This document shows, one piece after another, positions 1 through 10,630 of a stretch of DNA of 28,526 bases. The translations under genes and the position numbers were made by a program. The stretch is from a virus: positions 1-28,526 of IMG/VR virus record IMGVR_UViG_3300044730_000593. The stretch is one strand, 5' to 3'. Each line of letters opens with the position of its first letter. Positions within the stretch are counted from its first letter, which is position 1. Under the pieces are notes generated by a model. That model was not told where the DNA came from and made no database searches. It saw only the letters and a list, made by a program, of their open reading frames with translations.

Positions 1-27
1 TGGTTTTAATAAACAATTTTATCCTAA

Positions 28-47
28 TTATATGTATTAACATATAA
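28..47. promoter_or_regulatory. Palindromic operator-like site, copy 1
   Basis: The 20-base sequence TTATATGTATTAACATATAA has perfect 8-base inverted arms (TTATATGT and ACATATAA) around ATTA. An identical copy lies exactly 40 bases downstream. Both stand upstream of the first plus-strand promoter. A dimeric repressor or activator site is the simplest reading, but no cognate regulator can be named from the window. Confidence 0.6.
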
Positions 48-67
48 AATAATACTAAATAGATAAT

Positions 68-87
68 TTATATGTATTAACATATAA
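68..87. promoter_or_regulatory. Palindromic operator-like site, copy 2
   Basis: This copy is identical over 20 bases to the site at 28-47. The 40-base spacing is close to four helical turns, so both sites would face the same side of the DNA, which suits cooperative binding. It lies about 60 bases upstream of the promoter -33 box at 148-150. Confidence 0.6.
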
Positions 88-145
88 TTAATTCGTCGAC
101 AAAAAAAGGTTATTCGTCTAATAATTGAAAATAATTAAAAATAAA

Positions 146-177
146 TTTTGCAGATAAGAAAATAGTGTGTACATTTG
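146..177 (+). promoter_or_regulatory. Bacteroidota-type promoter of the early block
   Basis: TTTTG at 146-150 gives the -33 TTG. TACATTTG at 170-177 matches the -7 consensus TAnnTTTG. The spacer between TTG and TA is 19 bases, the usual distance for the primary sigma factor of Bacteroidota. Transcription should start near 182-185, ahead of the ATG at 209. Confidence 0.75.
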
Positions 178-208
178 TATACAGATAACAATAATTAAAA
201 TAAACAAT

Positions 209-385
209 ATGACAACAATTATTTCAAACTCAAAATTAAGATTAGACTTTAACGGTTCAAAAACTTATATGGTTATTGATAGCCCTGAATTATTTGAAAA
301 TGAATCTTGTGTTTTCGCTACATCTTCTTTAGTTAAAGCTAAAAATTATTTTAATAAAATATCAAAACAAAGTAATGCGATCTAA
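209..385 (+). CDS. Small early protein, unknown function
   Basis: This encodes a 58-residue protein beginning MTTIISNSKLRLDF. I do not recognise a family. The ATG at 209 is chosen because an upstream in-frame ATG at 167 would lie inside the promoter, before the expected transcription start. The protein is polar, with no membrane segment or cysteine cluster. Its end overlaps the next gene by 11 bases, so the two are probably translationally coupled. As the first gene after the early promoter it could act very early in infection, for example on the host, but that rests on position alone. Confidence 0.6.
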   Translation: MTTIISNSKLRLDFNGSKTYMVIDSPELFENESCVFATSSLVKAKNYFNKISKQSNAI

Positions 386-539
386 TTTATTTGACATAGA
401 ATATAACGAGTTATATTGTGGTAAATACCCATGTATTATATTACAACAAGATAAAACACACGTTTTAATACAATTTGAATCAGGAATAAAAATAGCTACA
501 CCTAAAAACTCATTAGATAAAAATTATGGAAAAAAATAA
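375..539 (+). CDS. Small early protein, unknown function
   Basis: This encodes a 54-residue protein beginning MRSNLFDIEYNELYCGKYP. It overlaps the preceding gene by 11 bases and the next by 14, the tight packing typical of phage early operons. The middle (ILQQDKTHVLIQFESGIKIA) alternates hydrophobic and polar residues like a small beta-barrel or SH3-like fold. That is an impression from the pattern and not a family match. No catalytic motif is visible. The support is unbroken frame, overlap structure and sensible composition. Confidence 0.5.
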   Translation: MRSNLFDIEYNELYCGKYPCIILQQDKTHVLIQFESGIKIATPKNSLDKNYGKK

Positions 540-675
540 ACAACCACCAACAACACCATACACAATACGTGTAGATACTGAAAAGCTACAAAGTGCAAAC
601 AGTAAAACAGATGCTAAACAACTTAGATTAAGATTAGCTAAAATAATTAATAACTATTTAAACAAAGTAAAATGA
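526..675 (+). CDS. Small basic protein, possibly DNA-binding
   Basis: This encodes a 49-residue protein. A proline- and threonine-rich start (KNKQPPTTPYTIRVD) is followed by a basic helix-rich C-terminus (KQLRLRLAKIINNYLNKVK). One strand followed by basic helices resembles ribbon-helix-helix or other small DNA-binding proteins, but the match is too weak to assign. It overlaps both neighbours (14 bases and 4 bases), which supports it as a real gene in the operon. Confidence 0.45.
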   Translation: MEKNKQPPTTPYTIRVDTEKLQSANSKTDAKQLRLRLAKIINNYLNKVK

Positions 676-872
676 ACGAAGAATTAACAAAAGAGTTAAA
701 TGCGCTCCAAGAGAAGTTTAACAAAGAGATTGAAGATGTAAAAAAGAAGTATGAGAAAAAAGAAATGACTTTAGATGAGATAGCTCACGAATTAATGTAC
801 AGCAACTTTGACACCGTTAAACATAAGTTATTGAAATACAAAGAAGAAATTATTAACGCTTTAAAAAACTAA
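672..872 (+). CDS. Small coiled-coil protein
   Basis: This encodes a 66-residue, highly charged protein. Residues 1-33 (MNEELTKELNALQEKF onward) form an obvious amphipathic coiled coil rich in E and K. A second helix-rich half carries the motif LDEIAHELMYSNFDTVKHKLLKY. No family was recognised. The ATG overlaps the stop of the previous gene (AATGA), indicating coupling. It probably oligomerises and may be a regulator or adaptor. Function is unknown. Confidence 0.6.
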   Translation: MNEELTKELNALQEKFNKEIEDVKKKYEKKEMTLDEIAHELMYSNFDTVKHKLLKYKEEIINALKN

Positions 873-873
873 C

Positions 874-1116
874 ATGAACCTAATAATCCCAACCATCCTA
901 CTAATAGCCTGTATATTAATTGTACGCTATATGGTAAAAGAATCTAAACCAGTTGAAGTAATACAAGAAGTTGAACTATCAGAAGAAGATATGTTTATAA
1001 TTGAAGAACAGATGAAACGTGATATGTTATTTTGTGCTAATTGGTGGAAAATACAAGGACGTTTTAATACTTCTCAATATGTTAAATACTTGGAGTATAA
1101 AGCTAGTAAGGGATAA
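874..1116 (+). CDS. Small inner-membrane protein, unknown
   Basis: This encodes an 80-residue protein. Residues 2-19 (NLIIPTILLIACILIVRY) form one N-terminal membrane segment. A short basic turn and a soluble acidic domain follow (EVELSEEDMFIIEEQMKR), ending in a tryptophan-containing stretch (CANWWKIQGRF). A single-pass anchor with a cytoplasmic tail is the likely topology. It starts one base after the preceding stop. An early membrane protein can serve in superinfection exclusion or host takeover, but nothing in the sequence decides this. Confidence 0.55.
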   Translation: MNLIIPTILLIACILIVRYMVKESKPVEVIQEVELSEEDMFIIEEQMKRDMLFCANWWKIQGRFNTSQYVKYLEYKASKG

Positions 1117-1132
1117 CGGTCCACAAATAACA

Positions 1133-1273
1133 ATGGAATGTAAAGGAATAGAAGTTGGAACAGGTAAAACAGAATGGGGTGCAGTTGAAAGTGAACAATA
1201 TTTTGTCATTAAACTAGGTCGTGAGGTTGGTCGTGAGGTTGGTCGGAGGAAAATGGAAAACTTATACTTTTAA
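1133..1273 (+). CDS. Small protein with internal 4-residue repeat
   Basis: This encodes a 46-residue protein beginning MECKGIEVGTGKTEWG. It contains GREV twice, encoded by a perfect 12-base tandem repeat at 1217-1240, followed by a partial third copy. The ATG at 1133 avoids a long overlap with the membrane-protein gene upstream. GC content is somewhat above that of the flanks. No family recognised. The GTGKT resembles a P-loop fragment but lacks the preceding GxxxxG context, so no nucleotide binding is claimed. Confidence 0.45.
   Translation: MECKGIEVGTGKTEWGAVESEQYFVIKLGREVGREVGRRKMENLYF
1217..1246 (+). repeat. 12-base tandem repeat inside a coding region
   Basis: GGTCGTGAGGTT occurs twice in tandem (1217-1240) and is followed by GGTCGG. 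It keeps the reading frame and encodes GREVGREVGR. It probably arose by slippage. Confidence 0.8.
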
Positions 1274-1279
1274 TAAAAC

Positions 1280-1348
1280 ATGATTTATGCTCAGGAATTG
1301 ATTGAGCTAAAGAAATTATTAACTATAAAAAATAGAAACAATGTTTAA
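1280..1348 (+). CDS. Possible 22-residue peptide
   Basis: A short open frame encodes MIYAQELIELKKLLTIKNRN plus two residues and overlaps the next short frame by 8 bases (ATGTTTAA). Overlapping organisation and an amphipathic sequence make translation plausible. The length gives little statistical support. Confidence 0.3.
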   Translation: MIYAQELIELKKLLTIKNRNNV

Positions 1349-1421
1349 AAAAAGAAACTGGACAAAATGGGAACACGTAATTTTTGTTGAAGATTTCCGA
1401 GCAGGAATTAAAACCTTTTAA
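1341..1421 (+). CDS. Possible 26-residue peptide
   Basis: A short frame encodes MFKKRNWTKWEHVIFVEDF and a few more residues. The composition (W, K, F, beta-prone centre) looks like a real small phage protein and not random AT-rich sequence. It overlaps the preceding short frame and ends 11 bases before the next ATG. Confidence is limited by length. Confidence 0.35.
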   Translation: MFKKRNWTKWEHVIFVEDFRAGIKTF

Positions 1422-1432
1422 AATTTTAAGCG

Positions 1433-1840
1433 ATGGAATTAACACAAACACAAATTGAGGCAATAAATAAAGAATGCCCATACGGACAAGGTATTTTCAG
1501 AGAGCCATTTGGAATACCAAACAACATAAAAGAATTGGTAGTTTATGCCAAATGGACATCAGGTGGCAGAGGCGGTAGTTGTTGGGATGATGAAAATACC
1601 GTAAACGAGCATTATGATTGCTACAGGCCAAGCGATGCTTTTAAGGTATTGGACATAACATTGAAAGTGTTAAGACCCGATATAACGCTTTTAGAATACA
1701 GAGAAATTGAAGCGTTAAAACAATCTAATACCGAAACTGATTACGGGTATTATGGCGATTACACGGAAGATACAATTGAATGGATTAAACTATCTGATTT
1801 ATATGAAGCGGTTGATAAAATTAAGCGGGAGGAAATATGA
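1433..1840 (+). CDS. Conserved-looking protein of unknown function
   Basis: This encodes a 135-residue acidic protein. The N-terminus reads MELTQTQIEAINKECPYGQG. A glycine-rich stretch follows near residues 42-50 (TSGGRGGSCWDD), and the C-terminus is helical (IKLSDLYEAVDKIKREEI). No family was recognised. Codon use is visibly richer in GC than the genes upstream (for example ggtggcagaggcggt), which suggests recent acquisition, and it sits just ahead of the cassette array. Its stop overlaps the start of the next gene (ATATGA). I looked for attC ends around it and found none. Confidence 0.65.
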   Translation: MELTQTQIEAINKECPYGQGIFREPFGIPNNIKELVVYAKWTSGGRGGSCWDDENTVNEHYDCYRPSDAFKVLDITLKVLRPDITLLEYREIEALKQSNTETDYGYYGDYTEDTIEWIKLSDLYEAVDKIKREEI

Positions 1841-2028
1841 AAAACAGCATTAAAGAGAGAGCAAAAAAAGTACCTAAAAAAATAAAATTTAAAGTAGCAC
1901 TAACTGTGTGGTGGCTTAAATTACGCCAATACTTTGTTATAAAGTCGGTTTGCGAACACAATTGGAAATATAGCAATGATGGTGAAGTTAAATATTGCAC
2001 AAAATGTGATGAAAGAGAATGGGCATAG
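1837..2028 (+). CDS. Basic protein with cassette-encoded zinc-ribbon-like tail
   Basis: This encodes a 63-residue chimeric-looking protein. Residues 1-33 are very basic (KNSIKERAKKVPKKIKFKVA) with an amphipathic WWLKLRQYF segment. Residues 34-63 begin VIKSVCEHNWKY and end with CTKC, giving a C-x-H ... C-x2-C zinc-ribbon-like pattern. The change occurs exactly at the cassette boundary G|TT (1936/1937), inside the GTT valine codon. The tail has no start codon of its own, so it is expressed only as a fusion to whatever frame lies upstream. The 78-residue protein at 4176 ends in the same VIKSVC plus cysteine pairs. Function unknown. Confidence 0.6.
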   Translation: MKNSIKERAKKVPKKIKFKVALTVWWLKLRQYFVIKSVCEHNWKYSNDGEVKYCTKCDEREWA

Positions 2029-2037
2029 CAAACTGTT

Positions 2038-2168
2038 TTATAACGTTATTTGGCTTTACGCAGGTGGGGCTAAATAGCACAAAACTTTCAACCTGTATAA
2101 AAGATCATTAAAAGCACGTAAGCTGGGTTTAAACGCTAACCCCCACTTGCGTAAAACCAATGTTAGCG
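2038..2168 (+). repeat. attC site of cassette C0
   Basis: R'' is TTATAAC (2038-2044) and R' is GTTAGCG (2162-2168), with crossover after G2162. The L'' arm TTTACGCAGGTGGGG (2055-2069) pairs with CCCCACTTGCGTAAA (2141-2155) with one mismatch, and TTGG (2050-2053) pairs with CCAA (2157-2160). R'' does not match the R' beside it beyond AAC/GTT. It matches the start of its own cassette at 1937, extended to GCAAACTGTTTTATAA against TTATAAAGTCGGTTTGC. Confidence 0.88.
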
Positions 2169-2180
2169 GTTCGTTTTATT

Positions 2181-2456
2181 ATGGAAAAGTTTAAAGAATT
2201 AGTTTCACTTTGTAAGGCAAGTGTTGAAATATCGGTTAATGACCACAAGGATTACTATGAAAGCGTTGAGCAGCATATCAACGAAGAAAATAGAGAAGAT
2301 ATTGATAAAGAAGTTTTTGAAGAAATGGTAAAACGAGATATTGTTGTAAAAGTTCAAGCATATCCACACACCCCAATAGGCTTCTTTGTTGTGTACCATT
2401 ACGATATTGATAAGGCTGTCGATATTGCGTTAGATGCTGTCAAAAATGACCGCTAA
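2181..2456 (+). CDS. Cassette C1 protein, unknown
   Basis: This encodes a 91-residue acidic protein beginning MEKFKELVSLCKAS and ending in AVDIALDAVKNDR. It is helix-rich at both ends with a proline- and aromatic-rich centre (AYPHTPIGFFVVYHYD). The ATG at 2181 is preferred to one at 2160, because the latter lies in the R' core and would read through the recombination site. The ATG is 18 bases after the cassette start, and the TAA stop lies inside the R'' box CGCTAAC. This compact start and stop placement is typical of integron cassettes. No family recognised. Confidence 0.7.
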   Translation: MEKFKELVSLCKASVEISVNDHKDYYESVEQHINEENREDIDKEVFEEMVKRDIVVKVQAYPHTPIGFFVVYHYDIDKAVDIALDAVKNDR

Positions 2457-2522
2457 CGTTTACAGCTTGGCGCAGTTTGCGCTGGCTTGCGGGGAGGTAA
2501 TTGCGCTAAGGTGCTGTTAGGT
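2451..2522 (+). repeat. attC site of cassette C1
   Basis: R'' is CGCTAAC (2451-2457) and R' is GTTAGGT (2516-2522). The arm ACAGCTTGGCGCA (2462-2474) pairs with TGCGCTAAGGTGCTGT (2502-2517) through GCGCA/TGCGC and ACAGC/GCTGT, leaving asymmetric extra bases as in known attC hairpins. At 72 bases it is a compact attC. R'' is complementary to this cassette's own first bases, TTAGCGG at 2163. Confidence 0.87.
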
Positions 2523-2566
2523 ATCAGTATTTTTAAACAGAAGGGGAGAAATTAAAAACTAAAATT

Positions 2567-2749
2567 ATGAAACAGGCTAAAATTACAGAAGTAAAAGAAC
2601 ATAAAGGATTTGAAAATTCAAATTTTATTACACATTATAGCAAAGAACAAATGATTGAATTTGCTATGTATTGTAGTGGACACCGAAAACACATGATTGA
2701 AAATAGATTTGAAGAATTTGAAAATAAGAATTTAATTAAACTAAGATAA
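2567..2749 (+). CDS. Cassette C2 protein A, unknown
   Basis: This encodes a 60-residue polar protein (MKQAKITEVKEHKGFENSNF onward). A helical centre, SKEQMIEFAMYCSG, precedes a basic and acidic tail ending ENKNLIKLR. It is the first of two genes in this cassette, with one base between its stop and the next ATG, so they are probably coupled. An A-rich leader with AAGGGGAG lies about 25 bases upstream. I do not recognise a family. Confidence 0.6.
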   Translation: MKQAKITEVKEHKGFENSNFITHYSKEQMIEFAMYCSGHRKHMIENRFEEFENKNLIKLR

Positions 2750-2750
2750 A

Positions 2751-2990
2751 ATGGAAACACAAGAAGAAAAAAAGAAAGCGTTTTTTGAAAAAGCTGAAAA
2801 GAATAAAAAAAATTTTGAGTTACATAAAGAATTAATTGCAAAACACATCGGAGGTTGGAATACAGATAAAATGCGAAATTCATCTATTGAGCATTTTTTG
2901 CAAACTGGTAAACCAAGTGGTGGTTTTTTATTAGCATTAATGCAATATGCAGAAGATTACGCTACTCACACACAGGCGGGTAGGGGTTAA
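2751..2990 (+). CDS. Cassette C2 protein B, unknown
   Basis: This encodes a 79-residue protein. The N-terminal half is a lysine- and glutamate-rich helix (KKKAFFEKAEKNKKNFELHK). The C-terminal half has a glycine-proline turn (GKPSGGFLLALMQYAEDYA) and ends in a basic THTQAGRG. It starts one base after the previous gene and stops 10 bases before the R'' box of the cassette, so the two proteins form a cassette-borne pair. A two-gene cassette in which both proteins are small raises the possibility of a toxin-antitoxin pair, but no such family is recognised. Confidence 0.6.
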   Translation: METQEEKKKAFFEKAEKNKKNFELHKELIAKHIGGWNTDKMRNSSIEHFLQTGKPSGGFLLALMQYAEDYATHTQAGRG

Positions 2991-2999
2991 AAATATTGT

Positions 3000-3130
3000 A
3001 CCTAACGGTTTGGGGCTTTGCGAAGGCAGGGCTAAATAGTACAAATGTTCAAATTTAGCACAATGTTTAATAGTAGCACAAATGTTCAATAAACCACTAA
3101 TGCCCTGCTTTTGCAAAACCCTTGTTATGG
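3000..3130 (+). repeat. attC site of cassette C2
   Basis: R'' is ACCTAAC (3000-3006) and R' is GTTATGG (3124-3130), with crossover after G3124. GCAGGGC (3026-3032) pairs perfectly with GCCCTGC (3102-3108), and the stem continues through TTTGCGAA (3017-3024) against TTTGCAAA. R'' complements this cassette's start TTAGGTA (2517). The loop start GGGCTAAATAGTACAAA closely matches the loop of the C0 attC. Confidence 0.87.
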
Positions 3131-3160
3131 GCAGTACGGTATTTAACACGAGATTTTAAA

Positions 3161-4114
3161 ATGGAAGTAAATAAAATATATCACGATGACTGGATGAATA
3201 ACCAACTACCTGATAAATCGGTGCAGTTGATTATCGCAGACCCACCATATTACAAAGTAAAAGGAGATTTTGACTTTGTTTGGAAAACCTTTGACGATTA
3301 CCTGCAAGATGTGGAACGCTGGGCATTAGAATGTAAAAGAGTTTTAGCAGACAATGGAACGCTTTATTGGTATGGAGATGCTAAAAATATTGCTTATGCT
3401 CAAATCATTTTTGATAAGCATTTTAATCTATTGAATAATTTAGTATGGTAAAATACAAACGACCATAAGCAACAAATACGATTTAATACCGATTTACGAA
3501 CATTTGCACCGCTTACTGAAAGATTACTGATGTATAGCAATGAAACGTATAATTTAACGCAATGTGTTTATCATATTAGGGATTATATAAGAGCAGAAAT
3601 AACAAAGGCAAAAGGTAAAATAGTATTAAAAGAAGTAAATGAGGCTTTGGGAACTGCTACAAATGGCGGTGGAGTTGCTTCGGCTTGTTTAAGTTTAGAT
3701 AAAGCAGAACCAACTATGCTAACCAAAGAAATGTATGAGAAGTTGCAAAATTGGTGTTATCCTTATTTACGCAAGGAATATGAAGTGCTACGCAAGGAAT
3801 ATGAAGTGCTACGCAGACCGTTTAACAATGAACGATTTTATGGTGATGTGATTAGAATACCAAACTATGAAACTGGAAACCACGAACACGACACACCAAA
3901 ACCTGAAAAGCTAACAAGGGAAATAATTTTAATAAGTAGCAGACCAAACGACCTTATTTTAGTTCCTTTTGCTGGAAGCGGAACAGAATGTGCAATGGCA
4001 ATAAAAGAAAATAGAAACTTTATAGGATTTGAAATAAATGGAAAACACGTTAATTATGGAAACAAACGAGCTGATAATATCAAGGCACAACCGTCATTAT
4101 TTTCAGTGTCGTAG
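3161..4114 (+). pseudogene. DNA adenine or cytosine-N4 methyltransferase split by an in-frame TAA
   Basis: The frame encodes an N6-adenine or N4-cytosine methyltransferase of the beta-type order: catalytic DPPY first (residues 27-30, IADPPYYK), AdoMet-binding VPFAGSGTE near the C-terminus, then FIGFEI. A TAA at 3449-3451 replaces codon 97 after NNLVW. The frame then continues unshifted (NTNDHKQQIRFNTDLRTFAP) into the C-terminal part, so this is one nonsense change and not a frameshift. Downstream translation could restart at ATG 3530 (194 residues, lacking DPPY). Motif I begins with V where D is usual. A 21-base tandem repeat gives KEYEVLR twice. It is the cargo of cassette C3. It is probably inactive unless the two parts complement each other or the stop is read through. 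Confidence 0.85.
3769..3810 (+). repeat. 21-base tandem repeat in the methyltransferase
   Basis: TACGCAAGGAATATGAAGTGC occurs at 3769-3789 and again at 3790-3810, followed by TACGCAGACC. It is in frame and duplicates a seven-residue unit (LRKEYEV) ahead of LRRPFNN. Heptad length suggests a helix extended by whole turns. Confidence 0.85.
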
Positions 4115-4120
4115 TATTGC

Positions 4121-4326
4121 CCATAACGGGATGCGGGTTGGCGAATGTAATTTTACGGATTTTGAAAAAAACTTTATGAAACAAGAAGATTTAAGGAAGA
4201 TACTTATTGAATTTGCAGAATTTTTAGAGCAATACGGAAATTTTAATATAACAGACGGCATTGAGATGTATGCTGATGAGTTTGCAAGAAGGCAAGTAAA
4301 ATTATTTTGCCAACCTGCTGTTATAA
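4121..4326 (+). repeat. attC site of cassette C3, unusually long loop
   Basis: R'' is CCATAAC (4121-4127) and R' is GTTATAA (4320-4326), with crossover after G4320. GCGGGTTGGCGAA (4133-4145) pairs with TTTGCCAACCTGC (4306-4318) with two mismatches. The cassette start TTATGGGCAGTAC (3125) is complementary to GTATTGCCCATAA (4114-4126) with one mismatch. The 160-base loop is coding sequence for most of the next ORF. Confidence 0.78.
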
Positions 4327-4412
4327 AATCGGTTTGCCGTTGCAAAAAAGGTTTTAAAGAGCATGAAGTTGATAGTCGCAAATGCGATACTTGTAATAGA
4401 GATATTTATTAG
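4176..4412 (+). CDS. Cassette-spanning protein with zinc-ribbon-like tail
   Basis: This encodes 78 residues. Residues 1-48 are helical (MKQEDLRKILIEFAEFLEQY onward). From residue 49 the protein reads VIKSVCRCKKGF and ends KCDTC plus NRDIY, giving paired cysteines. The join at VIKSV is exactly the crossover GTT at 4320-4322, so the N-terminal part lies in the loop of the C3 attC and the tail in cassette C4. In-frame ATGs further upstream (4131, 4038) lie in the attC arm or in the methyltransferase gene, so 4176 is preferred. The tail matches the C0 tail in position, frame and first six residues. Function unknown. Confidence 0.6.
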   Translation: MKQEDLRKILIEFAEFLEQYGNFNITDGIEMYADEFARRQVKLFCQPAVIKSVCRCKKGFKEHEVDSRKCDTCNRDIY

Positions 4413-4422
4413 GCAAACTGTT

Positions 4423-4499
4423 TTATAACGTTTTGCAGCTAATAAATCGGGCGGTATGCAGTTAGTCGATGTCCGCCTGTTTATTAGGTGCTGTTAGCA
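4423..4499 (+). repeat. attC site of cassette C4
   Basis: R'' is TTATAAC (4423-4429) and R' is GTTAGCA (4493-4499). CAGCTAATAAATCGGGCGG (4436-4454) pairs with CCGCCTGTTTATTAGGTGCTG (4473-4493), with three extra bases (GTG side) on one strand as in attC bulges, closing an 18-base loop. GGCAAACTGTTTTATAA (4412-4428) complements the cassette start TTATAAAATCGGTTTGCC (4321-4338). This is the cleanest hairpin of the array. Confidence 0.9.
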
Positions 4500-4521
4500 G
4501 TAGGTGGTACAAAATGTTGCT

Positions 4522-4605
4522 ATGAAACTAAAAAAGTGGAAATTTGAAAACTTGCAAACACTTAAAAATAAACAAGTTATAAAAAGTAGTGGAAATTTGA
4601 AATAA
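4522..4605 (+). CDS. Possible 27-residue basic peptide
   Basis: A short frame in the leader of cassette C5 encodes MKLKKWKFENLQTLKNKQVI and a few more residues. AGTGGAAATTTGAAA occurs twice here (about 4535 and 4588), so the region may instead be a repeat-containing leader. Its reality as a gene is doubtful. Confidence 0.2.
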   Translation: MKLKKWKFENLQTLKNKQVIKSSGNLK

Positions 4606-4618
4606 CCAAAATACCAAA

Positions 4619-4906
4619 ATGACAGAAAATATGAGCATAAACAATAACGCAGAAATTAACAATTTGTTAAAGAGAATATCTATTGAAAAATTAGACGATG
4701 TAACTGTAATTATTCATAGCAAAAGTATAAGTTTTAGTTTTACACTAGCTAATGCTGTTTGCAAAGATGAGTTTAAAGATAAATACAGATACTTTGGCGG
4801 ATTACAATGTAATTACGAAGTTGGAAGTGAAATGTATATTCTTTTAGAAAAGAGATTATGCTTAGTTGCCGAGAATGTTTTAACTGTGGCAACCACTTAC
4901 TGCTAA
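4619..4906 (+). CDS. Cassette C5 protein, unknown
   Basis: This encodes a 95-residue protein. After a polar start (MTENMSINNNAEINN) it shows beta-prone segments (VTVIIHSKSISFSFTLA), then KYRYFGGLQCNYEVGSEMYI and a hydrophobic end. It has four cysteines. The TAA stop lies inside the R'' box TGCTAAC at 4901-4907, as in cassette C1. The ATG lies 125 bases into the cassette after an A-rich leader. No family was recognised. Confidence 0.62.
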   Translation: MTENMSINNNAEINNLLKRISIEKLDDVTVIIHSKSISFSFTLANAVCKDEFKDKYRYFGGLQCNYEVGSEMYILLEKRLCLVAENVLTVATTYC

Positions 4907-4907
4907 C
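4901..4907 (+). repeat. Truncated attC of cassette C5 (R'' only)
   Basis: TGCTAAC, extended leftwards as CCACTTACTGCTAAC (4893-4907), complements the cassette start GTTAGCAGTAGGTGG (4493-4507) with one missing base. No L''/L' stem or G|TT partner is visible in the following 200 bases. The 3' half of this attC therefore seems deleted, fixing the right edge of the array. Confidence 0.7.
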
Positions 4908-4938
4908 TACTCGCTAAGACTAATAAATGTAACCCAAA

Positions 4939-5121
4939 ATGAAGCAACTAACTAAAAGTAAAACAATTAGGTTTTCAGAAACTCAAATGAATAGTTTAGC
5001 TATTTTAGAAGATTACGGAGTTAATGTTAATCATTTTATCCGTTTAGCAGTTAAAGAAAAACTATCAAGAGATTGGAAACAAATTAAAGAATCTAAAAAC
5101 AAATCTAAATGCCCATTTTAA
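4939..5121 (+). CDS. Ribbon-helix-helix-like DNA-binding protein
   Basis: This encodes a 60-residue protein. Residues 7-12 (KTIRFS) form a typical N-terminal ribbon strand. They are followed by two helices, ETQMNSLAILEDYG and NVNHFIRLAVKEKLSRDW, and a basic tail ending NKSKCPF. The strand-helix-helix layout fits the CopG/Arc/MobC-like fold, which binds DNA as a dimer. It is the first gene after the cassette array and starts the DNA-processing group, so it may regulate that group. Candidate targets are the palindromes at 28-87, but this is speculation. Confidence 0.65.
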   Translation: MKQLTKSKTIRFSETQMNSLAILEDYGVNVNHFIRLAVKEKLSRDWKQIKESKNKSKCPF

Positions 5122-5122
5122 C

Positions 5123-5473
5123 ATGAATTGGAATAACGCAAAACTAAACGAGATACAAGCTATTGAAGATAGCCTAATTTATTCTGCTAACTCTGGCAGT
5201 AGTAGCAAATTATTTACTACATTTATACACTCTACTTCTGAATGGATAGATAAAGAAAATACTGCTAAAGAAGTGCATATTAGCCCATATAAGATACAAC
5301 TAGACAAAGATATTGACATGGTTGCTTATCATATTGAAAGTGGATTTAGAACTGATGATGCGTTTGAAGCTGCTGGTTTAAATAGACATAGCTTTTATAG
5401 TAAAATGACTGACACACATCACAATATTTTAATGGCTGCTAGAAAGAAACGTAAACATAATAGAAATTATTAA
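5123..5473 (+). CDS. Putative DNA-binding protein with C-terminal helix-turn-helix
   Basis: This encodes a 116-residue protein. The N-terminal two thirds are helical and polar with no known motif. Residues 85-106 (TDDAFEAAGLNRHSFYSKMT) look like a helix-turn-helix of the transposase/resolvase kind: acidic helix, AAGL turn, recognition helix with RHSFY. A very basic tail follows (RKKRKHNRNY). It begins one base after the ribbon-helix-helix gene and overlaps the next gene (TAATG). A role in regulation or terminase-like DNA recognition is possible. Confidence 0.55.
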   Translation: MNWNNAKLNEIQAIEDSLIYSANSGSSSKLFTTFIHSTSEWIDKENTAKEVHISPYKIQLDKDIDMVAYHIESGFRTDDAFEAAGLNRHSFYSKMTDTHHNILMAARKKRKHNRNY

Positions 5474-5727
5474 TGGAAAAAGATAGTATATTTGAACTTC
5501 AAAAAATAGACTGTAATTGTAACGACTGTATATTTATGATTAGAGATTTTGAAACTAAGCAAAAGTGGGATAATACAGAATTACACGAAAACCAAAAAAA
5601 TGCTAGTTTTAGAATACATTACGGTAATTGCAGCAAGCTAAATAAAGAAGTATCTTTTATTCCTAACAGTATTTCATTAAACATAGAAAAGAAATATAAA
5701 CCAATAAAAACAAATAAACATGAGTAG
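5473..5727 (+). CDS. Cysteine-rich phage protein, probable zinc binder
   Basis: This encodes an 84-residue protein. CNCNDC (residues 14-19) and a later HYGNC supply four or five possible zinc ligands. The aromatic and charged middle (RDFETKQKWDN) and the SFIPNSIS segment recur in small proteins I associate with flavobacterial phages, next to SSB genes. It overlaps both neighbours (3 and 8 bases). The likely role is an accessory to DNA replication or recombination, inferred from position only. Confidence 0.6.
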   Translation: MEKDSIFELQKIDCNCNDCIFMIRDFETKQKWDNTELHENQKNASFRIHYGNCSKLNKEVSFIPNSISLNIEKKYKPIKTNKHE

Positions 5728-6097
5728 TAACACGCAATTAAAGTACAAAGGTACTATCATTTACATCGGATCAACCGAAGTAGTAAGTGATAAATTTTCT
5801 AAACGTCAAATAGTATTATCTGACAAAACAAGCCAATATCCACAAGAGATATGTTTTGAGGTACATAAAGATAAATGTGCTATATTAGATAGCTATAATG
5901 TAGGCGAAGAAGTAGATGCTGAATTTAACTTATCAGGTCGTTTATGGAAGGATAACAAATGGTTTAATACTTTGGTTATTTGGAAAATTAACAAGGTAGG
6001 TAGTAATAACAATGTAGGTACATCTGCGCCAGTAAGTAATGATAATGCGCCTAAATTTGATAGGGAAATATCTGATAACGATTCATTGCCATTCTAA
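5720..6097 (+). CDS. DUF3127-type single-stranded DNA-binding protein
   Basis: This encodes a 125-residue protein. Residues 5-95 form an OB-fold-like domain of the DUF3127 type: KGTIIYIGSTEVVSDKF, YPQEICFEVHKDK, VGEEVDAEFNLSGR, then NTLVIWKINKV. The linker is rich in N, S and P, and the C-terminus DREISDNDSLPF is an acidic tip of the SSB kind that recruits replication and repair proteins. It should coat single-stranded phage DNA during replication and recombination with the annealing-like protein and exonuclease downstream. The start overlaps the preceding gene by 8 bases. Confidence 0.85.
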   Translation: MSSNTQLKYKGTIIYIGSTEVVSDKFSKRQIVLSDKTSQYPQEICFEVHKDKCAILDSYNVGEEVDAEFNLSGRLWKDNKWFNTLVIWKINKVGSNNNVGTSAPVSNDNAPKFDREISDNDSLPF

Positions 6098-6128
6098 ACT
6101 AACTAAAAACAATTAAAACTAAAATAAG

Positions 6129-6347
6129 ATGAAAGTAGAAAAAAAGAAAGTAGTAAAAAAGCAAGTTTGGAAATGTGAATTAATACACTATTCTGATGGA
6201 ACAGCCACATTGAATAGAACAAATGATGGATTTATGCCACTTGAATTATTAGGTCTTTGTACAAAAGCGATTCATGATATTACAGATCAAACTAAAGGCA
6301 TTATAAATCCAACTACAATTAATCGCAAATTAGTTAAGCGTAAATAA
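6129..6347 (+). CDS. Small basic protein, unknown
   Basis: This encodes a 72-residue protein with lysine-rich ends (MKVEKKKVVKKQVWK; NRKLVKRK) and a beta-prone core (WKCELIHYSDGTATLNRTND). The second half (MPLELLGLCTKAIHDIT) is helical. It could be nucleic-acid binding. It lies 31 bases after the SSB gene and is the last gene before the short transcript unit at 6389-6490. No family recognised. Confidence 0.6.
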   Translation: MKVEKKKVVKKQVWKCELIHYSDGTATLNRTNDGFMPLELLGLCTKAIHDITDQTKGIINPTTINRKLVKRK

Positions 6348-6388
6348 CATTTTAACATAATTTAACATTTATGTATTAAAACAATTAA

Positions 6389-6396
6389 TACATTTG
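6389..6396 (+). promoter_or_regulatory. Bacteroidota -7 box ahead of a short transcript
   Basis: TACATTTG matches TAnnTTTG exactly and equals the -7 box at 170-177. About 19 bases upstream the sequence is ATTTAT with no TTG, so the -33 element is weak. The expected transcript start is near 6402. Confidence 0.55.
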
Positions 6397-6401
6397 TGAA
6401 C

Positions 6402-6490
6402 GCTAAGTTTGAGTTGAGGGGCTTAAACAATAATAGCAAAACTTATTAAAACGGCTGCCCTCTATCCCTCATAGTTGGCAGCCTTTTTTT
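6402..6490 (+). ncRNA. Candidate short RNA or attenuated leader
   Basis: This is a non-coding stretch between a -7 box and a strong terminator, predicting an RNA of about 90 bases. Inside it TGAGGG (6415-6420) can pair with CCCTCA (6466-6471), which lies in the terminator loop. GAGGG can also pair with CCCTC (6458-6462), which overlaps the terminator stem. The RNA could therefore switch between terminator and antiterminator forms and control the genes from 6498 onward, or be a stand-alone small RNA. Confidence 0.45.
6453..6490 (+). terminator. Intrinsic terminator
   Basis: GGCTGCC (6453-6459) pairs perfectly with GGCAGCC (6477-6483), followed by seven T (6484-6490). The loop is 17 bases. It lies just 7 bases before the next ATG, an attenuator-like position. 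Confidence 0.85.
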
Positions 6491-6497
6491 ATTTAAC

Positions 6498-6659
6498 ATG
6501 GAAACATTAGAAGTGCTCATAGACTTAGCTAACAAAATCGAAAAACAAATTATTGAGGAATCTAAAAAGGATTACGACCCAGTAGAAAAACTAATTAGGG
6601 CTAATGCAAAAAACGAAGTTTTAATAGAGATTTATAAATATATTAATAAAGAGAAATAA
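6498..6659 (+). CDS. Small helical protein, unknown
   Basis: This encodes a 53-residue charged protein (METLEVLIDLANKIEKQIIE onward). It is almost entirely helical and probably a coiled coil. It starts 7 bases after the terminator T-run and its stop overlaps the next ATG (TAATG), so it leads the recombination operon. No family is recognised. Confidence 0.6.
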   Translation: METLEVLIDLANKIEKQIIEESKKDYDPVEKLIRANAKNEVLIEIYKYINKEK

Positions 6660-6841
6660 TGGAATCAGAATTAAGTTATAATACTCGTGTTTACGACAAA
6701 GATCCTAAATATACTGATTGCGAAGATTGTGATGGAGTTGGTTTTAATTACGTCTATGATTCGGATATACCAGAAGATAGGCAGTTAATTAAAGAAGTTT
6801 GTAAAAGATGCGAAGGCTCAGGAGTACTAGAAATTAAATAA
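6659..6841 (+). CDS. DnaJ-type zinc-finger protein
   Basis: This encodes a 60-residue protein with two CxxCxGxG motifs, CEDCDGVG (about residues 21-28) and CKRCEGSG (about 48-55). This is the pattern of the DnaJ central zinc-binding domain, here reduced to one zinc-binding pair. Such stand-alone mini proteins are common in phage early regions and usually have no proven role. Binding of zinc is likely, and contact with single-stranded DNA or unfolded protein is possible. The start overlaps the preceding stop. Confidence 0.75.
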   Translation: MESELSYNTRVYDKDPKYTDCEDCDGVGFNYVYDSDIPEDRQLIKEVCKRCEGSGVLEIK

Positions 6842-6857
6842 CTAAAAACTAAACAAA

Positions 6858-7355
6858 ATGGAAAAGACACATTGGAAAAAAAATAATGATTCAAACTTTA
6901 TCTCAGGTGAAGATTTGATTAGCGGATTAAAAGGACTTAAACCAGAAATGGTAGTAGTGATTGAAAAGTTTAATGATGCTGAATCGTTTGACCAAAAGAA
7001 ACAAAGTAAAATAACTGTTTCAGCTTTGTACTTAAAAGAAGTAGGAGGTGCTAGTTTATACAAGCCAGTTATATTAAACAAAACAAATGCTAAGTTTTTT
7101 GTTAAAGAAACGAACAGCGACTTTGTAGATGATTGGTTAAATAAGCCTGTTATTGTTTACGCTCAAAAAGATGCTAGACATGGACACGTTGTAAGATTTA
7201 GAAAATATGTATTCCCAGTATTACAAGCTAATACACCTGACTTTGATAAGTGTAAAACGGCTATTGAAAAAAGCGGATATACAATAGACCAAATCAGACA
7301 AAAATATCAAGTAAGTACAGAAGTAGAAAAATTATTATTAGCTAAAAATGGATAG
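6858..7355 (+). CDS. Recombination-associated protein, OB-fold-like
   Basis: This encodes a 165-residue protein. It begins MEKTHWKKNNDSNFISGEDL and has the core KPVILNKTNAKFFVKETNSD, then WLNKPVIVYAQKDARHGHVVRFRKY. I associate this arrangement (tryptophan start, planned K-P-V/M-I-L-N-K-T-N-A, then a second beta half ending in R-x-R/K) with a phage family regularly encoded beside YqaJ or RecT genes, probably an OB-like DNA-binding or annealing partner. Here it overlaps the exonuclease gene by 8 bases, which supports a joint role in single-strand annealing. The exact family name is not certain. Confidence 0.65.
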   Translation: MEKTHWKKNNDSNFISGEDLISGLKGLKPEMVVVIEKFNDAESFDQKKQSKITVSALYLKEVGGASLYKPVILNKTNAKFFVKETNSDFVDDWLNKPVIVYAQKDARHGHVVRFRKYVFPVLQANTPDFDKCKTAIEKSGYTIDQIRQKYQVSTEVEKLLLAKNG

Positions 7356-7971
7356 AATATTTAAAATAAGATGCTCACAAATCGGGAAGATTATGAGTAA
7401 CGCAAAGGTAAAAGGTGAACTATCTCAAACTTGTAAAACATATTTACACGAATGGTATGCCAATGATAATGAGCAAATCAACTCTAAATACATGGACAAA
7501 GGCATTGAAGTTGAAAATGATTTGATTAACTTTATGGCAGACGTTCTAGGTTATGGAATGGCAGATAAAAATACTGTTCGATTACATGAAGAATGGATAG
7601 AAGGTGAATGTGATGTTAATTTACCTGATTGTATTGTGGACGTTAAAGCTAGTTGGAATAAAACAACCTTACATAAGCAAGTTTTAGAAGGTTTAGATAA
7701 AGATTATGAATGGCAGTTAAAAGGATATTGTTGCCTTTATCAAAAACCAAAGGGAATATTATTTTTTGGGTTAATGAATACACCAGAAACTGACTACTCA
7801 AATGAGGTTATATTTGAAGATTTGCCGCCTAATGAACGTTGGATAGCTTATGAAGTAATACCAACCGAAGAAGATTATAATGCTATTAAAGAGCGTGTAA
7901 TTAAGTGCAGAGAGTATTTAGAAGAATATGATAAACTAATTAAAAATAAACTAGGTAAAATTGTATCATAA
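7348..7971 (+). CDS. YqaJ-type (lambda-exonuclease-like) recombination nuclease
   Basis: This encodes a 207-residue nuclease of the PD-(D/E)xK superfamily. KGIEVENDLINF (51-62) gives the first acidic helix, GECDVNLP (86-93) the catalytic D89, and CIVDVKAS (95-102) the D98-x-K100 pair. YEWQLKGYCCLY further on is the conserved Q-x-x-x-Y helix. The enzyme should digest one strand from double-strand ends to leave 3' tails for annealing. The length is normal for the family. It follows an OB-like partner and an SSB, making a phage recombination module, though no classical RecT/Beta annealase is seen. Confidence 0.85.
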   Translation: MDRIFKIRCSQIGKIMSNAKVKGELSQTCKTYLHEWYANDNEQINSKYMDKGIEVENDLINFMADVLGYGMADKNTVRLHEEWIEGECDVNLPDCIVDVKASWNKTTLHKQVLEGLDKDYEWQLKGYCCLYQKPKGILFFGLMNTPETDYSNEVIFEDLPPNERWIAYEVIPTEEDYNAIKERVIKCREYLEEYDKLIKNKLGKIVS

Positions 7972-7995
7972 GCATAGTGATAACTTAAATAAGTT

Positions 7996-8003
7996 TATAT
8001 TTG
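7996..8003 (+). promoter_or_regulatory. Possible -7 box between nuclease and lysis-like genes
   Basis: TATATTTG fits TAnnTTTG and lies in the 106-base gap after the nuclease gene. No TTG lies at the correct distance upstream, so it is a weak candidate. The gap also holds a 15-codon frame (8028-8075) of doubtful meaning. Confidence 0.3.
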
Positions 8004-8077
8004 AAAATACAACTAATAAATAAAGACATGGAAAAGACACCGCAAGAAACACTACAAGTAAACGATAAAAAATAGAA

Positions 8078-8284
8078 ATGATGAGTAAAGATGAAGCAAT
8101 AGAACAAATGAAGTTAGGACACAAACTAACACATAGACATTTTACCAATGATGAATGGATAAAAACAAATCAAAAAGGCGAAGTTTATATTTTTGAGGAT
8201 GGCGTTGAATGGCCTAAATATGAATTTTGGCTTTGGAGAACTGACAAAAGTTGGGAATCTGATTGGGAACTATATAAATCATAA
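8078..8284 (+). CDS. Small phage protein, SH3-like pattern
   Basis: This encodes a 68-residue protein (MMSKDEAIEQMKLGHKLTHR onward), with FTNDEWIK, YIFEDGVEW and FWLWRTDKSWESDWELY. The layout is an N-terminal helix plus glycine, a basic histidine strand, then several tryptophan-containing strands. It resembles small phage proteins that share a start like the DUF2829/Tad2 family, in which an N-terminal helix and G-K precede a small beta barrel. That family counters Thoeris defence by binding its signal molecule. The resemblance is only partial and I do not assign the function. The start could also be Met2. Confidence 0.6.
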   Translation: MMSKDEAIEQMKLGHKLTHRHFTNDEWIKTNQKGEVYIFEDGVEWPKYEFWLWRTDKSWESDWELYKS

Positions 8285-8311
8285 TATTAACCACCCCTAA
8301 AACAAACTGAT

Positions 8312-8437
8312 ATGAAACTAATAAAAGACTTCTTAACCTATACGGTAGGCATAACAATAGTAGCTGTATTTGCTATGTCAGTATTATTTGTAATGTGGAT
8401 TAAAGATAAATTTTGTAACAAGTGTAAAATAAACTAA
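8312..8437 (+). CDS. 41-residue single-span membrane protein
   Basis: This encodes MKLIKDFLTYTVGITIVAVF and a further 21 residues. A single hydrophobic span covers about residues 10-30, followed by a short basic tail with two cysteines (KDKFCNKCKIN). It is first in a run of four small membrane-protein genes ending at the block terminator. A holin-like or accessory lysis role is possible from size and context. Confidence 0.6.
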   Translation: MKLIKDFLTYTVGITIVAVFAMSVLFVMWIKDKFCNKCKIN

Positions 8438-8446
8438 ATTAGCGAG

Positions 8447-8644
8447 ATGAAAGTAATATTCAGAATAATTGTATTGCCAGTATTTATAGCATTTATATTA
8501 ATATCTTTAATTCGAGATACGATAGGATTAAGCATTAGCTTTTTAAGATATGGAGGCGAATTAGTGGCATTTAAAAAAGATTCAAAAGAAACAATAAGAG
8601 GTTTATTTAACCTTGTTGAAAATAATAATAATATTAATAACTAA
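8447..8644 (+). CDS. 65-residue membrane protein
   Basis: Residues 2-22 (KVIFRIIVLPVFIAFILISL) form a membrane span. A second amphipathic stretch (TIGLSISFLRYGG) and a polar tail ending in an asparagine run (NNNNINN) follow. It lies 9 bases after the previous gene and ends one base before the ATG of the next, clearly in one operon. It could take part in lysis or in membrane remodelling. No family recognised. Confidence 0.55.
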   Translation: MKVIFRIIVLPVFIAFILISLIRDTIGLSISFLRYGGELVAFKKDSKETIRGLFNLVENNNNINN

Positions 8645-8645
8645 C

Positions 8646-9239
8646 ATGAAAACACTAACATTTAAAACGATCCTGCCTTACTTAGTAATGGCTTTATTAA
8701 TAATCCTAGCATCTTTATTTCTAAAAGATTGCAGAGGCGGTGAACCTAAATTAACACTAATAGATAATAAAGATAGCCTTTATAATCTGATAGCTGAAAA
8801 GGAGCAAATTAACGAGGTTATTTTAGAAAGTAATAAAGAGTTAAGGCATCAATTAGATAGTGCAACACACGTTAAACCTAGAGTTATTATACGCTATAAA
8901 ACGGTTTATGATAGTTTACTTATTACTGACACGCTTTGCATCCAATCTTTAACAACCCTTAACAATGAATGTGCTAAAAAAGATAGTGTTAATGAATACA
9001 TTATATCTAACCAATCCAATCAAATAGCTAACCTTATTACAGTTAACAATAACCTAAATGATATTATAGACATACAACGTTATAGAATCGGTACGGATAG
9101 CATTAATGAGGTTACTTTAAAGCAAACTATTAAAGATGAGATTAAGAACGGTAAACGTAAGTATCGTAAGGGATTGTTACAAGGTGGGGCTGTTGGTTTG
9201 GGTGTAGGAGTATTAGGAACTTTATTATTGGTTAAGTAA
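8646..9239 (+). CDS. Bitopic coiled-coil membrane protein, spanin-like
   Basis: This encodes 197 residues. Residues 6-26 (FKTILPYLVMALLIILASLF) form an N-terminal span. A long, polar, helix-rich middle (about 45-165) contains DKDSLYNLIAEKEQINEVI-like heptads. A basic segment, KRKYRKGLLQGG, precedes a glycine-rich C-terminal span (AVGLGVGVLGTLLLVK). One N-terminal span plus periplasmic coiled coil resembles the inner-membrane subunit of Rz-type spanins, but a second C-terminal span is unusual. The ATG at 8646 is chosen because upstream starts overlap the previous gene. Confidence 0.6.
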   Translation: MKTLTFKTILPYLVMALLIILASLFLKDCRGGEPKLTLIDNKDSLYNLIAEKEQINEVILESNKELRHQLDSATHVKPRVIIRYKTVYDSLLITDTLCIQSLTTLNNECAKKDSVNEYIISNQSNQIANLITVNNNLNDIIDIQRYRIGTDSINEVTLKQTIKDEIKNGKRKYRKGLLQGGAVGLGVGVLGTLLLVK

Positions 9240-9349
9240 TGAGAGAAATAATAGAAACATTAGTAGCTATACTTTATTGTATATTAGTAATAGCTTGGTT
9301 CTGCTTTTTAATATACATTCCATTTCACTTTATAATTAAGTATTGGTAA
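9239..9349 (+). CDS. 36-residue membrane peptide
   Basis: This encodes MREIIETLVAILYCILVIAW and a further 16 residues. It is almost wholly hydrophobic from residue 7 to 33, with a KYW end. The ATG overlaps the stop of the previous gene (TAATG), and its TAA is followed at once by the block terminator. A single-span peptide at the end of a membrane-gene run could be a holin, antiholin or small regulator. Confidence 0.5.
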   Translation: MREIIETLVAILYCILVIAWFCFLIYIPFHFIIKYW

Positions 9350-9386
9350 AAAAAACCCCTGAGTAAATCGGGGGTTTCTTTTTTTT
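9350..9386. terminator. Bidirectional terminator between convergent blocks
   Basis: AAACCCC (9353-9359) pairs with GGGGTTT (9371-9377) around an 11-base loop. T-rich sequence follows on the plus strand (9379-9386). The A-run before the stem gives a T-run on the minus strand. It ends both the plus block (stop at 9349) and the minus block (stop at 9422). Confidence 0.85.
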
Positions 9387-9421
9387 GCTTCCCATAGCTA
9401 AGTTACGCTTACACAAATATA

Positions 9422-9655
9422 CTAAACATTCTCTTTAGTTGTATCTTCTTTAAAGAAATTAGTTAAAAATTTACCTACTACGCCCAATATAAAGGCTGTA
9501 CCGATAATTACTTTTAATTCTTTAGCATCAAATATTTGGATTAATCTATCATATTCAATTAGCCCTCCAGCCGTTACGAATACAGCAACAGCTAATATAG
9601 CATCACCTAATTGCCTCCACTTCTTAGGAGTTGGTTTGTAGTAGTTTTTTATCAT
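9422..9655 (-). CDS. Holin-like membrane protein
   Basis: This encodes 77 residues. A basic N-terminus (MIKNYYKPTPKKWRQLGD) precedes a hydrophobic span (about 18-33, AILAVAVFVTAGGLIEY). A polar loop, a second span (about 49-66, VIIGTAFILGVVGKFL) and a charged tail (KEDTTKENV) follow. Two spans, small size and a charged tail fit phage holins. It is the last gene of the late block, directly after a putative wall-active DUF5675 protein, which is the normal place for a lysis cassette. Confidence 0.65.
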   Translation of the reverse strand: MIKNYYKPTPKKWRQLGDAILAVAVFVTAGGLIEYDRLIQIFDAKELKVIIGTAFILGVVGKFLTNFFKEDTTKENV

Positions 9656-9664
9656 TTTTTCTGT

Positions 9665-10207
9665 TTATTTAGTTATTTCAATTATTATTTTTTGTCCATT
9701 AACTTTGCTTTTAGTAAATATTTCGCCAAATTCCTTACTTCCAGACTTGCCTTTTTTGTGAATAGTTACCAATTTTTGAGCCGTAATACTATCCATTGTT
9801 AAGTGATTTAGTACAATGTAAAATAACCTTTCAAATGCTTGAGTTGATCCAGTTACATAATCTTTTGTTTCTTTAGTCCCAGTTAAAGGACATCCTAAAG
9901 TGTCAGATTTATCGTTTCCTTTATGTATTCTAATTCCTTTAAATCCTTTAGTGTTTAATAATAATGGTAACCAAATTCCAAAAGCACCAGATAAAGTAAC
10001 TACAACCTCATAGACACCATAAGGAATACAAGTTTCGCCATATACTTTTAGCTTTTCAATTTCTTTAATATCCATTGTATCTTTTAAATCTCTATCCTTA
10101 TCTTCTAAGAATATACATATTTTTTCAGTACCTATTGATACATCTGAAATAGTTGAATCATCTGTAAATTTTCTACGCTTTTGGCTTATCTCTAATACAT
10201 TGCTCAT
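9665..10207 (-). CDS. DUF5675 family protein, probable lysis or wall-related enzyme
   Basis: This encodes 180 residues. CIPYGVYEVVV (60-70) and IRIHKGNDKSDTLGCPLTG (92-110) are the family signature. H95 and C106 in an IH-G ... T-x-G-C arrangement resemble the catalytic layout of YkuD-like L,D-transpeptidases. That likeness is my observation and the chemistry of the family is not established. There is no signal peptide, so it would need a holin to reach the wall. It sits between two small membrane proteins. No other endolysin candidate is visible in the window, so this may be the lysis enzyme. Confidence 0.75.
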   Translation of the reverse strand: MSNVLEISQKRRKFTDDSTISDVSIGTEKICIFLEDKDRDLKDTMDIKEIEKLKVYGETCIPYGVYEVVVTLSGAFGIWLPLLLNTKGFKGIRIHKGNDKSDTLGCPLTGTKETKDYVTGSTQAFERLFYIVLNHLTMDSITAQKLVTIHKKGKSGSKEFGEIFTKSKVNGQKIIIEITK

Positions 10208-10419
10208 TATTGAAATACGTGGTTTTCTAATCTGGTAACTCTTTTTTCAGTTTCATCGTGCTTAGTTGCAACTTCTTTAACCGCTACTTTAATTTCGTTT
10301 AAATCTTTGCCCATACTCATTAGTGCTTTTACTCCTAAAGCCCCTATGAATCCTAATATTGAAAACATTGTAAATGCTGCCCATATTAAAAAATGCGTTT
10401 CGTTTGGTGATAGTATCAT
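10207..10419 (-). CDS. Membrane anchor with coiled coil, XhlA-like
   Basis: This encodes 70 residues. Residues 8-32 (HFLIWAAFTMFSILGFIGAL) form one span. The C-terminal half is a coiled coil (LNEIKVAVKEVATKHDETEK) ending RVTRLENHVFQ. XhlA-type haemolysin proteins, which work with holins, have the reverse order (coil, then span), so this is an analogue at most. The stop overlaps the DUF5675 start (TAATG), indicating a shared lysis operon. Confidence 0.6.
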   Translation of the reverse strand: MILSPNETHFLIWAAFTMFSILGFIGALGVKALMSMGKDLNEIKVAVKEVATKHDETEKRVTRLENHVFQ

Positions 10420-10437
10420 AGTGTTATCTCGTTAAAC

Positions 10438-10629
10438 TTAAATGCCATAATCCTCCAGAACATTTAATTTATTTACCGTTATAAACTCATCACTATTTTT
10501 ATAAGTAACTCCATTTATATCCATTTTATCAAACTCAATTAACTTAATACCAATTCCATCTATATTAATATGGCTTTGATTTTCATTAATCACTTGAACC
10601 CAAACTACTTGTTTTAAATCTATTTCCAT
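10438..10629 (-). CDS. Small protein between fibre and lysis genes
   Basis: This encodes a 63-residue, acidic, beta-rich protein (MEIDLKQVVWVQVINENQSH onward; ends NKLNVLEDYGI). One base separates it from the fibre gene upstream. Placement right after a fibre gene suits a fibre chaperone or small cap protein, but there is no sequence match to prove it. Confidence 0.55.
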   Translation of the reverse strand: MEIDLKQVVWVQVINENQSHINIDGIGIKLIEFDKMDINGVTYKNSDEFITVNKLNVLEDYGI

Positions 10630-10630
10630 T

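Follow-up and report, generated by a model that had tools for sequence, protein, structure and literature searches.

Integrons are usually regarded as bacterial devices. The locus described here raises the question of what an array of integron-type cassettes does in the early region of a phage: where its units begin and end, what they carry and how they might be exchanged. The window, by which we mean the whole 28,526-base stretch of DNA analysed, is an IMG/VR virus record. It codes for a terminase, a portal protein, an SSB and an exonuclease, is linear and possibly incomplete, and the phage likely has a host in the phylum Bacteroidota. A preliminary description had proposed an integron-type cassette array without an integrase at this place. 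Our analysis supports that proposal, but assigns the hairpins to other neighbours and places the crossover elsewhere.

RESULTS

Five attC sites and six complementary body ends

For the detection of attC sites we used our own script, which looks for R''/R' boxes (NNNYAAC...GTTR pairs) and folds the arms between them. Window-wide it returned exactly five strong sites on the + strand (Table 1), all of them well above the remainder of the window, where the strongest background reached about -10.5 kcal/mol. In 40 Markov-shuffled windows the same detector gave five hits at or below -13 kcal/mol and none at or below -14. The sites are clustered and have paired R and L arms; two such sites would be enough for a cassette array or CALIN. 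In addition, six bodies begin with a box that is complementary to the box at their own end, so that the five hairpins and six complementary ends of the preliminary description were all located where it had put them. The complementarity extends beyond the 7-base boxes: over the 10 bases that follow, phage and bacterial groups alike average 6.0-6.8 matches. Four window sites were folded, and in three of them the coding strand came out lower in free energy than its complement.

A scan of the window against Rfam at gathering thresholds returned no family, so there was no ready-made attC family to rely on, and megablast of positions 1-12000 against our phage genome collection gave no matches. We built a covariance model (R2) from 37 sites of other phages and none of the window. 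It recovered four of the five window sites, those at 2038, 2451, 3000 and 4423, with E values from 2e-11 to 5e-7; the 206-nt site at 4121 was not returned under default filters.

Table 1. Features of the cassette array and its right border in the window (↓, crossover point)
Feature	Position	Strand	Box pair	Arms (kcal/mol)	R2 E value	Content
attC site	2038-2168	+		-20.7	2e-11	
attC site	2451-2522	+		-13.5	5e-7	
attC site	3000-3130	+		-20.1	7e-10	
attC site	4121-4326	+		-16.3		206-nt span
attC site	4423-4499	+		-19.4	1e-9	
U0, left remnant	1837-2043	+	1936/2044			ORF 1837-2028, reading through the R box 1936-1942; ends TTATAA↓C
U1	2044-2456	+	2162/2457			hairpin 2045-2161, ORF 2181-2456
U2	2457-3005	+	2516/3006			hairpin 2458-2515, ORFs 2567-2749 and 2751-2990
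U3	3006-4126	+	3124/4127			hairpin 3007-3123, N6/N4 DNA methyltransferase frame 3161-4114
U4	4127-4428	+	4320/4429			long hairpin 4128-4319, small Cys-rich ORF 4176-4412
U5	4429-4906	+	4493/4907			hairpin 4430-4492, ORF 4619-4906
attI-like terminus (putative)	4901-4930	+				box TGCTAAC, then TACTCGCTAAGACTAATAAATG; the junction also precedes homologs of the adjoining gene in viral contigs
Backbone gene	4939-5121	+				60 aa, conserved, just downstream of the array and in the same direction; 28 viral relatives

The same attC class in other phages and in bacteria

A search with the window methyltransferase led to cultured virulent Flavobacterium phages. We mapped 12 genomes of Lillamy-, Mumin- and Hattifnattvirus, and every one has an early-region array, with 9-15 sites each; ten sites were counted in a thirteenth, snusmum6-1. 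Nearly every cassette of the 12 phages matches its own box at 7/7, and across the related loci this holds for 369 of 452 adjacent-site pairs, against 4.2% of random pairs. The consensus of 58 distinct phage sites reads nnATAAC GTTTTGCnGCTTTGCG ... GCAAAACnGCT GTTATnn, with an unpaired spacer of about five bases by the left box and about one by the right box; these lengths were read by the script that pairs the arms and could be wrong by one base.

With a 20-base half-site pattern, for which we estimate about four chance hits, at least 120 stretches were found in genome contigs, nearly all of Bacteroidota or the related Ignavibacteria/Chlorobi, and 119 stretches in IMG/VR viral contigs, many of which hold the same arrays. 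The arrays of the bacterial stretches follow the same box rule. A strict half-site pattern matched only two of 149 Flavobacteriaceae genomes. A search with a 64-position attC model found sites in only one of 12 genomes, probably because its first-pass look misses long loops, and scanning genome contigs for the C-terminal half of the methyltransferase encoded in the window gave no confirmed match. In the complete Bacteroidota chromosome SSA2 (G004:C1), sites of this class are scattered over about 480 kb, at about 3,497,000-3,982,500 (L212, L418, L419), and an IntI-like recombinase lies 3.3 kb past the final one; should the array prove continuous, it would rank as a very large integron. Two viral contigs begin exactly at the TAAC of an array end (L007 1-60, L461 1-40), which suggests that assemblies break at these arrays and that the arrays are undercounted. 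The rarity assumed in the preliminary description does not fit the 13 cultured phages and the many IMG/VR stretches, nor the phage CALINs published in 2023 (PMC9892861).

The mobile unit and its crossover point

To follow individual cassettes we sorted the arrays of 12 Mumin/Lillamy/Hattifnatt phages into 28 stem types and 26 body types. Eight body types were met with more than one stem: in six of them the left stem is constant and only the right one differs, according to the neighbour, and the remaining two are B16, with two left-stem versions in five and two genomes, and B3, one copy of which has another left stem. In pairs of loci sharing a body, the left stem was kept and the right one changed in seven cases from IMG/VR and in ten from bacteria, and the opposite pattern was seen in neither group. 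Junction sequences in the 12 phages match up to ...YAAC and diverge just after it. From the comparison of stems and junctions it follows that the unit, in structural orientation, consists of a hairpin and the body on its right, and that crossover takes place at the box beside the 5-nt spacer. The preliminary description had expected insertion at G↓TT, in the right box; in phages, a hairpin and the ORF downstream of it travel together, and strands cross over in the left box, at YAA↓C. Nearly identical phages differ in cassette content, again with junctions at YAAC. Related phages are hence not collinear throughout, and the cleanly bordered gain and loss of cassettes that the preliminary description expected is seen. 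No empty platform was present among the loci examined.

Recut at the left boxes, the window array is made up of five whole units of hairpin and ORF, preceded by a remnant, U0. Each of U1-U5 holds one or more complete ORFs with the sole exception of the methyltransferase frame in U3, which is broken by an in-frame TAA at 3449-3451, while PF01555 matches both halves. This TAA is either a genuine nonsense change or an assembly error. Over 939 nt, U3 is 72% identical in DNA to a cassette of a Lillamyvirus array. The recut leaves ORF 4176-4412 whole inside U4, whereas the separate cassettes C1 and C5 of the preliminary description yield start-less ORFs and were dropped. The end pair of U5 spans 16 nt (4493-4508/4892-4907). 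In both U1 and U5 the stop codon TAA (2454-2456 and 4904-4906, respectively) lies inside the terminal recombination box, CGCTAA↓C in the former and TGCTAA↓C in the latter. For U0, neither the left half of the hairpin nor an upstream arm was found. U0 (1920-2047) and U4 (4304-4432) are homologous: 1920-1953 and 4304-4337 form a 76% direct repeat, 2028-2047 is identical to 4413-4432, and both encode small Cys-rich C-terminal segments (VIKSVC...C..C).

Inverted polarity of phage cassettes

With the units recut at left boxes, we counted clear ORFs only and took the direction of the longest one; the loci had partly been gathered by the attC pattern itself. ORFs running with and against the structural orientation numbered 118:0 in the Mumin group, 204:2 in IMG/VR and 8:147 in bacteria. 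Counted per locus, the ratio is 97:1 in phages versus 2:53 in bacteria (Fisher, 1.6e-37, for loci that are not fully independent). Bacterial cassettes thus have the canonical makeup, an ORF followed by its own attC, whereas phage units are inverted, with the attC ahead of the ORF, and do not fit the usual definition of a cassette. Since the orientation is opposite, the phage units are not simply copied bacterial ones, and with so nearly absolute a difference functional traffic of cassettes between phages and bacteria looks small. A spread of cassettes between phage and bacterial integrons is therefore not supported.

A putative attI-like end

The array appears to close in an attI-like half-site common to phages and bacteria. 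The sequence after the last YAAC has a common profile, with T at position 8, C at 12 and G at 13, in phage arrays and in bacterial arrays at the end nearest the recombinase, and a short terminus motif occurs at 49% of phage and 36% of bacterial termini compared to 6.5% of control positions. In nearly all of the 28 viral contigs with a homolog of 4939-5121, YAAC and a TACTYG-like sequence stand immediately upstream of the gene; most of them have attC sites farther upstream, with differing last cassettes. The closest relative (L459) is 98% identical in the protein of 4939-5121. Its 89% alignment to the window starts at 4903, and the match begins exactly at TAA↓C; the upstream cassettes differ and do not align. 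We also considered a truncated right end, that is an R'' without L'/R', and rejected it, as YAA↓C followed by backbone is the expected end.

Candidate recombinases

No IntI homolog was found in the window or in the phage loci L001-L178, and none is annotated in the complete lillamy9-1 genome; the window, in a record that may be incomplete, thus shows no intI gene of the kind that a complete integron has. Three viral stretches with attC arrays (L303, L356, L415) also bear IntI-like recombinase genes. In bacteria, several arrays of the same class adjoin an IntI-related tyrosine recombinase. For 20 such genes in Flavobacteriaceae we scanned the flanking DNA with our detector: 299 kb of flanks gave 47 attC-like sites versus two in 318 kb of control regions, which places the host recombinases beside attC arrays. 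The sites are mostly found past the 3' end of the recombinase gene. Of 149 Flavobacteriaceae genomes, 103 encode a relative of the recombinase, adjacency having been checked for the 20 top hits only. Three of the proteins score 203-218 bits against TIGR02249, below its cut-off of 265 (IntI1 as control, 508). The host recombinases end in SP(L/F)DxL like IntI1, and all five in our alignment (A3) lack some 30 residues of IntI1, the additional domain near patch III. As they fall below the NCBIfam cut-off for IntI and are devoid of the segment inserted in IntI1, they are candidate enzymes for recombination at attC. The nearest solved relatives are archaeal XerA-type enzymes and IntI4.

Methyltransferase cassettes and plating

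By annotation, DNA methyltransferases of many kinds are among the array genes of the Mumin group; they probably protect against host restriction. Nilsson 2020 (PMC7077304) reports that a specific methyltransferase was lacking in those LMO9 phages whose plating on LMO6 was reduced, and names lillamy9-1 and morran9-1 for host-dependent plating. Of the 35 Mumin-group genomes, 20 have the methyltransferase cassette B16, as do 11 of 14 LMO6 isolates, and it is missing from lillamy9-1 and morran9-1; we infer that B16 is the methyltransferase meant in that study. A perfect link of B16 to growth on LMO6 was rejected on account of the snusmum6 phages, which are without B16. In snusmum6-1 the last cassette is a 42%-identical homolog of B16 in its place. 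Cultured phages that differ in their arrays, and for which plating has been published, make a possible role of integron-type cassettes in plating on restricting hosts directly testable.

DISCUSSION

Building on the observed sites, unit cut, polarity, terminus and turnover, we consider it probable that the array is an integrase-less, attI-bearing platform within the early operon of the phage, the units of which would be swapped by a host integrase acting in trans. The mobile unit would be an attC hairpin with its downstream ORF, and attC sites recombining as single strands would add or remove such units at the box beside the longer (~5-nt) unpaired spacer, at YAA↓C, and the attI-like site would close the array beside the conserved gene at 4939. 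To judge from the neighbourhood in other genomes, the catalyst is most likely an IntI-like tyrosine recombinase supplied by the infected Bacteroidota cell. Transcription would start from the phage early promoter and run toward the attI-like end; as the ORFs read toward that end, phage ORFs are inverted relative to attC polarity when compared with bacterial cassettes.

Homologous recombination by the phage itself, of the exonuclease/annealing type, which would shuffle modules via short boxes and similar stems and leave the hairpins as relics or transcript-processing elements, is in our opinion an unlikely account of the array as a whole. At most junctions the shared sequence amounts to only about YAACG and a few bases, and such a process has no need for conserved stem folds or for box complementarity as strict as that found here, although the phage does encode an exonuclease of the phage-recombination type and an SSB. 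Some different cassettes have similar stems, for example those before B3 and B4, and homologous recombination could hence explain part of the turnover. It is quite improbable that the array is an inert CALIN, acquired from a host integron in a single event as a set of bacterial cassettes and passively inherited since: the turnover among nearly identical phages, with its YAAC junctions, and the opposite orientation of phage ORFs both argue against it, even if the attC class is present in Bacteroidota chromosomes, the phage is without integrase and the methyltransferase frame has a stop. Very doubtful, too, is an unrecognised recombinase encoded by the phage, which might hide among its many ORFs of no known function and for which the three viral stretches with IntI-like genes could be quoted, given that neither the window nor L001-L178 gave any IntI-like hit and none is annotated in lillamy9-1.

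Phages seem to draw on a common pool of cassettes distinct from that of bacteria, in which DNA methyltransferases abound, and cassettes would be exchanged mostly among phages. We lean towards the view that Bacteroidota phages run their own integron economy, in which attI-bearing platforms without integrase are served in trans by a divergent host recombinase, inverted ORFs keep the pools separate and anti-restriction functions are traded. As such, a whole phage group would use integron site chemistry as a standing locus of gene exchange, with the inverted polarity separating phage from bacterial cassette traffic. If this is true, there is a phage gene pool functionally apart from bacterial integrons, and anti-restriction genes are traded between phages.

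Part of this picture has been published. Qi 2023 (PMC9892861) reported 17 CALINs in 10,705 genomes, including virulent phages such as Polaribacter phage P12002L, and showed recombination of some of the phage attC sites by IntI1 in E. coli. Those CALINs and the arrays studied here are both attC arrays without intI in tailed phages, with methyltransferase cassettes. The main text of PMC9892861, however, does not mention Flavobacterium and describes no inverted polarity, attI-like terminus or turnover at the population level. Among open-licence papers we found no report of the inverted polarity, the attI-like end in phages, the family-wide turnover or the arrays in these Flavobacterium phages.

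The chromosomal integrons of Treponema (PMC3607928), in which the recombinase is transcribed toward the array and attI and the cassettes are dynamic, match most of the recombinase-linked Bacteroidota loci in layout; unlike them, the phage arrays are devoid of a recombinase and their ORFs are inverted relative to attC. With the class 1 integron (IntI1/attI1, L165-L167) the phage arrays have in common the R''-L''-L'-R' hairpins, the GTT/AAC boxes and, putatively, an attI-type end. They differ from it in that class 1 cassettes carry the ORF upstream of their own attC, with near-symmetrical spacers in place of the spacers of about 5 and 1 nt in the phage sites.
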